A program made the position numbers and the translations under genes. A model generated the notes under the pieces. It ran no database searches. It had not been told where the DNA came from and saw nothing but the letters and a program-made list of their open reading frames with translations. A stretch of DNA of 64,000 nt. It comes from an uncultured Gemmatimonadota bacterium (lineage in GTDB: Bacteria > Gemmatimonadota > Gemmatimonadetes > Gemmatimonadales > Gemmatimonadaceae). This document shows positions 980-5,132 of this stretch, piece by piece. Position 1 is the stretch's first letter. Each line of letters begins with the position of its first letter. The stretch is from contig CADEFN010000005.1 of the NCBI GenBank assembly GCA_902826615.1, positions 186,001 to 250,000 on the forward strand. The letters are read 5' to 3'.

Positions 980-1720
980 ATGGCTGAACTCTCGGAGCTT
1001 CCGCTCAAGACCCGCCTCTTCCTGGCGGCCTATCGATGGCGTCGCATCGATCCCGTGCCCTGGTCGCCGCTGCGCAAGCCGTTGCGGGAGTGCCGGGTGG
1101 CTGTTGTCAGCAGCGCAGGGCTCACACGTCCCGACCAGGCACCCTTCGACGATGACGTGCGGGGTGGCGATCCCACGTACCGAATTTTGCCGGCCGACAC
1201 CGAACTCGGTGAGTTGCTCGAGAGTCATCGCAGCGAATCGTTTGACCACTCTGGGCTGCGTGAGGATCCAAACCTGGCGTTGCCGCTTGACCGGCTGAAG
1301 GAGCTGGCGGGTGCAGGCACCATCGGCGACGTGGCGCCGCGGCATCTCTCATTCATGGGTTCCATCACTGCCACGGGGCGTCTGGTCAAGGAGACCGCGC
1401 CCGGGGCGGTGAACACCCTCGTCGCTGATCAGGTGGATCTGGCGTTGTTTGTCCCGGTGTGACCCATGTGTACCCAGACCGTGAGTCTGGTGGCGGCCGA
1501 AGCAGAACGACAGGGCATCACAACGGTGTGCCTGCAATTGCTGCGGGTGATTGCCGAGTCGGTGCGACCTCCACGAGGCCTCCTGGTTCCGTTTCCGCAT
1601 GGCTACCCGCTTGGTCGCCCGCATGACGCAACCCTGCAGCACCGCGTGTTGCGCGCGATGCTAGCCCTGACGAATGAGCCTGGCCCCGGGCCCATCCTTC
1701 GAGAGTTGGGGTCTGCATGA
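980..1720 (+). CDS. GrdB-like (glycine/sarcosine/betaine reductase selenoprotein B family) protein, probable selenoprotein with in-frame TGA
   Basis: The first 160 codons from ATG 980 resemble the GrdB-like family (VSSAGLTRPDQAPFDDDVRGG, then SHRS, PLDRL and SFMG). Translation would stop at TGA 1460-1462, but the same frame continues for 85 codons with the expected second half of the family (CTQTVSLVA, PPRGLLVPFPHGYPLG). Read through, the TGA gives FVPV-Sec-PMC: a UxxC redox motif with Sec161 and Cys164, where other members are recalled to have CPxC. A hairpin 11 bases downstream fits the bacterial SECIS pattern. The length of 246 residues is one complete domain. The partner and substrate are unknown, and no other reductase subunit or Sec machinery gene is in the window. 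Alternatives are a nonsense-mutated pseudogene or a sequencing error. Confidence 0.82.
1474..1490 (+). promoter_or_regulatory. SECIS-like hairpin downstream of the in-frame TGA
   Basis: Bases 1474-1479 (CCAGAC) pair perfectly with 1485-1490 (GTCTGG) around the loop CGTGA. The apical loop starts 17 bases after the TGA at 1460-1462. Known bacterial SECIS elements have an apical loop about 16-37 bases after UGA, a short upper stem, and a G within the first two loop bases; here the second loop base is G. The hairpin lies within the coding sequence, as bacterial SECIS elements do. Confidence 0.7.
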
Positions 1721-1916: not shown

Positions 1917-4900
1917 ATGCGATCTCTTCTGCTCCTCCTCGTACCCGTCGTGCTCTCTGCACAGCCAGCCAACGCCACGAAATTTGTGCGCTATGCGCAC
2001 GTGGCCAACGATGGCCGTATCGCCTTCACGTACGCGGACGACATCTGGCTCGCCGACGCCAACGGCGCCAATCCCCGCCGGCTCACGGCGCATGTGGCCC
2101 GCGATATCTCGCCACGCTTTTCGCCCGATGGGCAATGGATTGCCTTCACGTCCAATCGAGCGGGCAACAACGATGTGTACGTCATGCCGGTTGCTGGCGG
2201 CGAGCCGAAGCAGCTCACCTACCACTCCGGTGATGACCAGGCGCTCTACTTCACCCCCGATGGCTCGGCTGTCATCGCCACGTCGTCACGCGGAACACTG
2301 GCGTGGGGCTCTCCGCTGTATCGCATTCCGCTGGATGACACGGTACCAACACCGTTAGGCATGGACATCGGGCGGGCGGGGATGATCAAGCAGGATGCGA
2401 CCCTGGTGGCCTTCAATCGCGTGCTGCCCACGTACTGGCGCAAGGGATACCGCGGGAACAACAGCGGTGACATCGCCGTGCAGGACCTCCGCACCGGCGC
2501 CATCCGCGAGATCACCGACACCGACCTGCAGCAATACAAAGGGCATGTCAACGATGTCCATCCCATGTGGGGCGCTGACGGCAGAATCTATTTTGCCTCC
2601 GAACGAGATGGGACCTTCAACATCTGGCGCACAGACCCGGCAGGCGGCAACGCGCAGCAGATCACTCGGCACACCGATGACGGTGTGCAGTTCCCCGCCA
2701 TGTCACCTGACGGCAAACGCCTCATCTACGAGAACAACTTCGAGTTGTGGACACTCGACGTCGCCAGCGGTCAGTCGCGCAAGGTGCCGATCACTCTCGC
2801 CTTCGATCCCAAGGAAAGCGACACGCAGGTGGTGACGACGCAGCATCGCGCCGACGGTTTCGCCGTCGCGCCGGAGGGAAATGCGATTGCCGTCGACTTT
2901 CATGGCGAGATCGTGATCGTGCCGGTCGAGTCTGGTGTGGGAGAACGACTCCAGGTGACCAGCTCACCGTGGCGCGAGCGTTTTCAGGCGTACAGCCCCG
3001 ATGGACGACACCTCGCCTACATCTCCGATGAGTCTGGTGAGGAGGAAGTCTGGATCACCGAGAATGCGACCGGGACGAAGCGCAAACTCACCACGCACGA
3101 ATCGGTGAAGGCGGAACTCACCTGGTCGCCCGCGTCAAACAAGGTTGCGTACACGGCGGCTAACCGGCTCTATGAGGTGGACGCGACGGGTGGCGCTGCG
3201 CGCGAGCTGGCGAACAATCCGGCCGGTGGGTTCAGCAATGTGGCCTACGCGGCCAACGGCAGCTGGATGATCTACGTCAAGCGCGACGACGATCAGAACG
3301 CCGAGGTCTTTGCACTCGATGTGGCCGCGAAGCGCGAGTACAACCTCACGCAGAGCCCCTTCAACGAGTCGAGTGCGCAGCTGACGCCCGACGGCCGCAC
3401 GGTGGTGTTCACGTCGAACCGGTCCAACGGTGTGGTGCAGATTTTTGCCACCTCGCTTGCGCGGCTCACCGAGGATCCAAACGATCCGCTGGTGCGGGAG
3501 CGCGCGCGCCGAGCCAACGGGCGATCGGACAGCAGCGCTGTGACAGCGCCGAACGCACTGCGGGTGGACGCGGCAGGAATCGAGAAGCGGGCGGTGCAGC
3601 TGACCCGAGGCACCGTGCCCGTGAGCACCTTCTTCATCTCGCGCGACGGGCGGACGGTGTACTTCTCGCAGGGCGCTGGAGGCGGCTTTGGTGGCGGCGG
3701 CCAACAACCGGCAGCAGCCTCGGACAATCCTGACGCGGGGCTGTATGCCGTCACCCTCGAGGGGCGCGACCGGCGGCGGGTCGCGCAAGGCGTTTTCAGC
3801 AACATGGTGCCATCCAGCGACCGTCGCACCGTGTTCTTCCGGAACACACCACGCGCCGACGATGGTGAGGCCGCGCCCGGCTTTGAAGTACACCGACTCA
3901 CTATCGCGAATCCGCAGCGTGCCGAGCGTGTCAACTTCTCCTTCCCCGTGCGTGTCGACCGCCGCGCGGAGTGGAACCAGGTGTTCGAGGAGTCCTGGCG
4001 TGTGATGAAGTACCGGTTCTATGACGAGAACATGCACGGCGTCGATTGGCGCGCGATCCGTGCGCGGTATCGTCCACTCCTGCAGTACGTGGGCACCAAT
4101 GAGGATCTCTACGATCTCACCAACGAGATGATCGGCGAGCTCAACGCGTCGCACACCGGGGTGAGCGGCCCGCCCACACGTCCGCAGCCCGCCGTCTATA
4201 GAACGCGCTTTCTCGGGTTCGAGATTGAGCCGGCCGAGGGTCGGTACCGCGTGTCCCATATCTATCGGGACGGGCCGGCCGACAAGGAGTGGATCGACCT
4301 GGCCGTGGGCGACTACGTCCTGGCGATCGACGGCACGGAGCTCAAGGCGGGCGACAACTACTGGAAGCTGCTGAGCACCACACTCAACGAGTACATCCCT
4401 GTGCGGTACGCCAGGACCCCAACCGGGGAGAACGCCAAGACCGCGCGTATCAGCACCGTGACATCACTCACCGACATCAGGTACGAGGAGTGGGTGGCGC
4501 GCAATCGCGATGAAGTGAAGGCGACGACCAATGGTGACATCGCATATGTCCATATCAGGTCGATGGACCAGCCATCGCTGGCGCGATTCCGGAATGAGAT
4601 CGATCAATACTCCAATGCCAAAGGCATCATTGTCGATATCCGGTACAACGGCGGCGGAAACATCGATCAGGAGCTCATCGACATTCTCGAGCGGCGTCCC
4701 TACCAGTTCTGGAACCAGCGGACCGGGGCGCGCACCTGGGGACGGCGGCCTCGGCAGGCGATCGCCGGGCCAAAGGTGATGCTGGTGAATCATCGGTCGG
4801 GGTCAGACAGTGAGGTCACACCGATGGCGTTCCGGCAACTCGGGCTTGGGCGGATTGTGGGGAACCCGACGGCGGCGGCGGTGATCGCTACCGGGAGTTA

Positions 4901-5132
4901 TCCGCTCATCAACGGCGGGGCGATTCGCACGCCGGGATCGCTGGTGGTCACGTACGACCCAACGCGGCCCAACAACTACGGTGTGAATCTCGAGAACCTC
5001 GGGGTGCCCCCGGATGTGTGGGTGGAGAATTCGCCTGACGAGGCGGCGAAGCGTATCGACAAGGAGCTCAAGGTGGCGATCGACGAGGCGATGAAAATGC
5101 TCCGTGCCACGACGCCGCGGGTGTCGCAGTAG
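1917..5132 (+). CDS. Tricorn-type S41 peptidase (periplasmic, beta-propeller plus PDZ)
   Basis: This 1071-residue protein has a signal peptide (MRSLLLLLVPVVLSAQ), then repeated SPDG/TPDG propeller blades over about residues 20-660, a Gly-rich loop near 585, a PDZ-like stretch near 760-850 and an S41 core. Catalytic residues line up with Thermoplasma tricorn almost to the number: Ser745-His746 (NASHTGV), nucleophile Ser963 in SGSDSE, and a probable Glu1026. The IRYNGGGN motif forms the usual oxyanion region. The family trims oligopeptides, and here the export signal suggests periplasmic peptide processing. It lies convergent with the HEAT-repeat operon. The start was chosen for its signal peptide; the ribosome site is weak. 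Confidence 0.93.
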   Translation: MRSLLLLLVPVVLSAQPANATKFVRYAHVANDGRIAFTYADDIWLADANGANPRRLTAHVARDISPRFSPDGQWIAFTSNRAGNNDVYVMPVAGGEPKQLTYHSGDDQALYFTPDGSAVIATSSRGTLAWGSPLYRIPLDDTVPTPLGMDIGRAGMIKQDATLVAFNRVLPTYWRKGYRGNNSGDIAVQDLRTGAIREITDTDLQQYKGHVNDVHPMWGADGRIYFASERDGTFNIWRTDPAGGNAQQITRHTDDGVQFPAMSPDGKRLIYENNFELWTLDVASGQSRKVPITLAFDPKESDTQVVTTQHRADGFAVAPEGNAIAVDFHGEIVIVPVESGVGERLQVTSSPWRERFQAYSPDGRHLAYISDESGEEEVWITENATGTKRKLTTHESVKAELTWSPASNKVAYTAANRLYEVDATGGAARELANNPAGGFSNVAYAANGSWMIYVKRDDDQNAEVFALDVAAKREYNLTQSPFNESSAQLTPDGRTVVFTSNRSNGVVQIFATSLARLTEDPNDPLVRERARRANGRSDSSAVTAPNALRVDAAGIEKRAVQLTRGTVPVSTFFISRDGRTVYFSQGAGGGFGGGGQQPAAASDNPDAGLYAVTLEGRDRRRVAQGVFSNMVPSSDRRTVFFRNTPRADDGEAAPGFEVHRLTIANPQRAERVNFSFPVRVDRRAEWNQVFEESWRVMKYRFYDENMHGVDWRAIRARYRPLLQYVGTNEDLYDLTNEMIGELNASHTGVSGPPTRPQPAVYRTRFLGFEIEPAEGRYRVSHIYRDGPADKEWIDLAVGDYVLAIDGTELKAGDNYWKLLSTTLNEYIPVRYARTPTGENAKTARISTVTSLTDIRYEEWVARNRDEVKATTNGDIAYVHIRSMDQPSLARFRNEIDQYSNAKGIIVDIRYNGGGNIDQELIDILERRPYQFWNQRTGARTWGRRPRQAIAGPKVMLVNHRSGSDSEVTPMAFRQLGLGRIVGNPTAAAVIATGSYPLINGGAIRTPGSLVVTYDPTRPNNYGVNLENLGVPPDVWVENSPDEAAKRIDKELKVAIDEAMKMLRATTPRVSQ

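Follow-up and report, generated by a model that had tools for sequence, protein, structure and literature searches.

Known PrdB- and GrdB-Type Selenoproteins

The closest described relatives of the gene treated here encode selenoprotein subunits of reductases. PrdB, the selenoprotein subunit of D-proline reductase in clostridia (TIGR04483), consists of about 240 amino acyl residues and carries selenocysteine (Sec) in a UxxC motif. GrdB, GrdF, and GrdH, i.e., selenoprotein B of glycine, sarcosine, and betaine reductases (PF07355, TIGR01917, and TIGR01918), are represented by longer models of about 431-435 positions and have Sec in a UxxC motif that is extended by a third Cys to UxxCxxC. UxxC PrdB selenoproteins are also known from other sources: 42 such genes were found in the Sargasso Sea set (PMC1088965) and 235 such proteins in the Global Ocean Sampling set (PMC2398784), proline-reductase selenoproteins are listed for Anaeromyxobacter and Geobacter (PMC1794560), and a review from 2026 lists D-proline reductase with UxxC (PMC13188914). 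A UxxC PrdB selenoprotein family outside the clostridia is already published, and the gene reported here is a genuine but ordinary addition to it. The marine-metagenome, Anaeromyxobacter, and Geobacter proteins, compared by description and not residue by residue, share with our protein the UxxC Sec motif, the assignment to PF07355/PrdB, a bacterial SECIS, the existence of Cys homologs, and a non-clostridial distribution, so that it constitutes another member from a new genome.

One Gene Probably Read Through an In-Frame TGA

In the window, i.e., the whole stretch of 64,000 nucleotides that was analyzed, the open reading frames 980-1459 and 1463-1720 lie in one frame, and the TGA at 1460-1462 is their sole interruption. 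Translation of positions 980-1717 through this TGA encounters one internal TGA, at codon 161, and yields a joined product of 246 residues. The features of the locus are as follows.

980-1720, plus strand: predicted complete selenoprotein gene of the PrdB-like/GRDB superfamily; 246 amino acyl residues plus stop in read-through translation, ATG at 980, final stop TGA at 1718-1720
1460-1462, plus strand: in-frame TGA, putative selenocysteine codon U161 of the UPMC motif; TGA in 50 of 51 homologs covering the site, TGC (Cys) in L068
1469-1471, plus strand: TGT codon of C164, second residue of the presumed UxxC redox pair; Cys in 49 of 49 distinct TGA-bearing sequences
1474-1490, plus strand: bacterial SECIS-like hairpin with the 6-bp stem CCAGAC/GUCUGG and the apical loop CGUGA

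The original prediction had taken the two frames for halves of one protein whose readthrough gives a Sec-Pro-Met-Cys motif of the UxxC type. This holds, as the PrdB profile TIGR04483 matches the joined protein from residue 27 to residue 230 (E 1.2e-34) and thereby spans the TGA, and the translation reads U161-P162-M163-C164. From residue 161 onward the sequence is UPMCTQT, and the third Cys of UxxCxxC is missing. Homologs have the start Met in common with the window protein and align with it from end to end. Comparison with these homologs strongly supports the view that 980-1720 is one working selenoprotein gene in which the apparent TGA stop is read as selenocysteine. As had also been anticipated, open reading frame calling with table 11 divides the locus, giving one frame of 172 and another of 84 residues.

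Conservation of the TGA and Selection on Both Sides

The search for homologs covered 60 relatives, 395 genomes of the window's phylum, and the named genome collection. They occur in the window's own phylum, Planctomycetota (including Candidatus Brocadia), Verrucomicrobiota, Acidobacteriota, Myxococcota, and in Desulfobacterales or Desulfofustis bins, and those covering the site are about 34-64% identical to the window protein. The same alignment column holds TGA in 50 of these 51 homologs, the window's included, which is far from a chance placement, and the remaining one has TGC. This Cys homolog, L068 in genome G243, displays the motif CAMC. The claim that relatives have CPxC in this position needs refinement: one relative does have Cys, but most have Sec.

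Mean identity to the window protein amounts to 54.9% after the TGA versus 52.6% before it, and dN/dS after the TGA ranges from 0.07 to 0.37 in eleven pairs, the distant ones being near synonymous saturation. Judged from these comparisons, purifying selection acts on both sides of the TGA. In genome G222, a copy of the gene (L081:1501-2081) is in pieces in different frames, owing either to decay of the gene or to faulty assembly.

One might suppose that translation really terminates at the TGA and that a second polypeptide restarts at ATG 1466, which begins 3 nucleotides after the TGA; calling with table 11 likewise gives two frames. However, Met at this potential start, M163, is found in no more than 25 of the 49 distinct sequences, the others having Thr, Ile, Leu, Val, Arg, or further residues, whereas all TGA-bearing sequences keep Cys164. 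Such a restart would also split the UxxC motif, and termination predicts neither the Cys replacement nor the hairpin described below. We therefore regard two separate polypeptides as very improbable, and readthrough of a single gene is the reading pursued here.

A SECIS-Like Hairpin Downstream of the TGA

Bacterial SECIS elements have been described as having a small apical loop that holds a G and as lying immediately downstream of the UGA (PMC1088965). The window hairpin agrees with this description, as it lies immediately 3' of the UGA and has a small apical loop with G. With the T of the TGA as nucleotide 1, positions 15-20 pair with 26-31 (window positions 1474-1479 with 1485-1490). Among 48 sequences, 96.9% of the hairpin cells are paired, and the covariation score of 0.503 exceeds both that of shuffles (0.163 ± 0.019) and that of slid versions of the hairpin (0.076 or less). 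RNAalifold returns the same helix unprompted, and 46 of 49 sequences have G at position 22, in the loop. In isolation the hairpin has a folding energy of -8.4 kcal/mol (z -3.3); it is short, and when the window sequence is folded with a context of 48 nucleotides, the minimum-energy fold is a different structure, although the centroid is the expected hairpin.

The most informative pairs of the stem are 19-27, found as A-U, U-A, or G-C, and 15-31, found as C-G, G-C, or U-A. In pair 19-27, the third base of codon 9 is the partner of base 1 in a codon that varies among Thr, Ala, and Ser; selection on the protein is not by itself expected to couple these two bases. The Cys homolog reads CAGTCGGTGGCGCTC, not the CAGTCGGTCGGACTG of its relatives, and its stem is therefore degraded. 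This locus (L068:1966-2030) presents a natural Sec-to-Cys replacement with a degraded hairpin in a host genome that retains selA and tRNA-Sec.

A nonsense mutation or a sequencing error, which would make the locus a pseudogene or would mean that faulty assembly had turned a Cys codon into TGA, might fit the sporadic occurrence of the gene, as the four further genomes of the genus that were searched gave no homolog at the threshold used. The TGA is, however, common to homologs from several phyla in independent assemblies, the RNA hairpin covaries, and the part downstream of the TGA is under purifying selection. The 50 occurrences of the same TGA refute this reading, and we consider mutation or error exceedingly improbable in comparison with a functional Sec codon.

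The Selenocysteine Pathway in the Window's Genome

The original prediction stated that a tRNA-Sec pathway would be needed and that none of it lies in the window. The genome holds it elsewhere: selA, selB, selD, and tRNA-Sec were all found, each above its curated cut-off.

C8:204381-205676: selA, 523.8 bits
C3:90832-92673: selB, 343 bits
C3: tRNA-Sec, 66.3 bits; tRNA-SeC with anticodon tca (UCA) according to ARAGORN
L082:1335-2420 (on C3), minus strand: selD, with an in-frame TGA of its own in CAGUAAK; directly upstream of the tRNA-Sec gene

SelD of this genome is probably a second selenoprotein. Genes for Sec synthesis that are situated elsewhere in a genome do not single out the gene at 980-1720. 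Of 30 genomes carrying a homolog, 29 gave a selA match (26 over the cut-off), compared with 41 of the 60 relatives irrespective of whether they have the gene; the exception, G367, is a homolog-bearing genome that is 86% complete.

Reading of TGA as sense at codon 161 would also be expected if TGA were reassigned throughout the genome to a sense codon, e.g., for Trp or Gly. Yet the gene's own stop at 1718-1720 is TGA, the downstream gene as well as selA and selB read normally under table 11, and the conserved replacement for this codon encodes Cys and not Trp or Gly. The probability of such a reassignment is practically negligible, and recoding of this particular UGA as Sec is the explanation we retain.

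Family Assignment and Predicted Structure

The protein had been called GrdB-like. This is correct insofar as Pfam GRDB (PF07355) is matched with 32.1 bits over a gathering score of 22, a match that covers the first half, while a Pfam search with the second half alone gave no match. The best family, though, is PrdB and not GrdB: the score is 119.8 bits with TIGR04483, below its equivalog cut-off of 300, and 34.4 bits with the GrdB model TIGR01917, far below the cut-off of 602. In length and score the protein is thus closer to PrdB than to GrdB. It is homologous to the C-terminal half of GrdB, GrdF, and GrdH, but it scores well under the cut-offs of their models and, at 246 residues, is much shorter than these. 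The PF07355 match above the gathering score together with the UPMC motif places it in the broad PrdB-like/GRDB superfamily, and 36 of 36 homologs tested match the PrdB model and the same set of models as the window protein.

These matches, with PrdB as the best NCBIfam family, might suggest a true PrdB subunit of D-proline reductase that partners PrdA. Against this, PrdA (TIGR04480) went undetected in 11 gene-bearing genomes, in searches whose control set included no positive genome, and no prd or grd operon surrounds the gene in any locus examined. GrdA (PF04723) was not found in 14 genomes either, again with no positive control matched. Because the score lies far below the model cut-off and PrdA and GrdA were undetected in these searches, in which no positive control matched, D-proline reductase itself is unlikely. 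The protein is best called a PrdB-like selenoprotein, and it probably acts as a stand-alone selenol/thiol oxidoreductase.

The junction between a β-strand and an α-helix is a usual place for a UxxC redox pair. In an AlphaFold2 model (pLDDT 92, pTM 0.92), U161 is located between the strand 154-158 and the helix 164-177. Searches of the PDB by sequence gave no relative for the single protein or for the profile, and searches by fold gave no Foldseek match at E ≤ 0.001. VIA-align reached Z scores of at most 7.9, to assorted unrelated α/β proteins, and with Foldseek empty, no fold relative can therefore be claimed.

Distribution and Genomic Context

In the phylogenetic tree, the window protein groups with proteins from Planctomycetota, Acidobacteriota, Verrucomicrobiota, and Myxococcota (97/92) and lies outside the main group that its own family forms. 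This placement suggests, but is no proof of, transfer or ancient paralogy, since bins can hold foreign contigs, and it is compatible with horizontal spread. No relative of the window protein was found in the viral contigs searched. An apparent extra domain is present in the Desulfofustis homolog (L053:6288-6809), which runs about 170 residues past the usual C-terminus.

Comparison of the neighborhoods revealed no conserved operon and few recurrent neighbors. At three loci (L002:120-1487, L066:2-1501, and L067:2223-3722), a flavin-dependent pyridine nucleotide-disulfide oxidoreductase, identified by Pfam in L002 and L066 and by similarity in L067, ends 0-11 nucleotides before the selenoprotein start. 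In L038 and L049, an acyl-CoA-synthetase-like ORF is located upstream and an α/β hydrolase downstream, with the AMP-binding family Pfam-tested in L038 only and the hydrolase in L049 only. Peptidases or related hydrolases (tricorn/S41, S33, S58, M14, S9, and DUF885) often adjoin the gene, in the window (1917-5132) as well as in L003, L004, L039, L042, L057, and L072; these may simply mirror genomes rich in peptidases. The recurrent neighbors are not taken as evidence of function.

Proposed Function and Significance

Taken as a whole, it is highly probable that a single gene encodes a 246-residue PrdB-like selenoprotein in which Sec is inserted at the UGA by means of SelB and the hairpin and forms a redox pair with Cys. 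We infer that SelB with Sec-tRNA(UCA) would read the UGA at 1460-1462 as selenocysteine and that the hairpin at 1474-1490 would direct the insertion. The product would bear a Sec161-Pro-Met-Cys164 selenol/thiol pair between β-strand and α-helix. By analogy with PrdB and GrdB, Sec161 most likely serves as the nucleophilic selenol that reduces a substrate, and the Sec-Cys selenenylsulfide through which it is recycled would be reduced again either by a thiol of the cell or by a flavin disulfide reductase. The flavin disulfide reductase encoded upstream in L002, L066, and L067 is a candidate for the electron donor.

There seems to be an even chance that bacteria without PrdA or GrdA have, in their Sec-rich PrdB-like proteins, a selenoenzyme family that acts on a substrate of its own, is sporadic across phyla, lacks a pyruvoyl partner, and is possibly fed by a flavin disulfide reductase such as that encoded directly upstream in those three loci. 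The homolog set supplies a compact SECIS-like element with clear covariation together with a natural Sec-to-Cys replacement. Since calling with table 11 cuts the gene into two open reading frames, the family is likely under-annotated. The locus sharpens the question of which role PrdB-like selenoproteins fulfill where no proline or glycine reductase partner is found.
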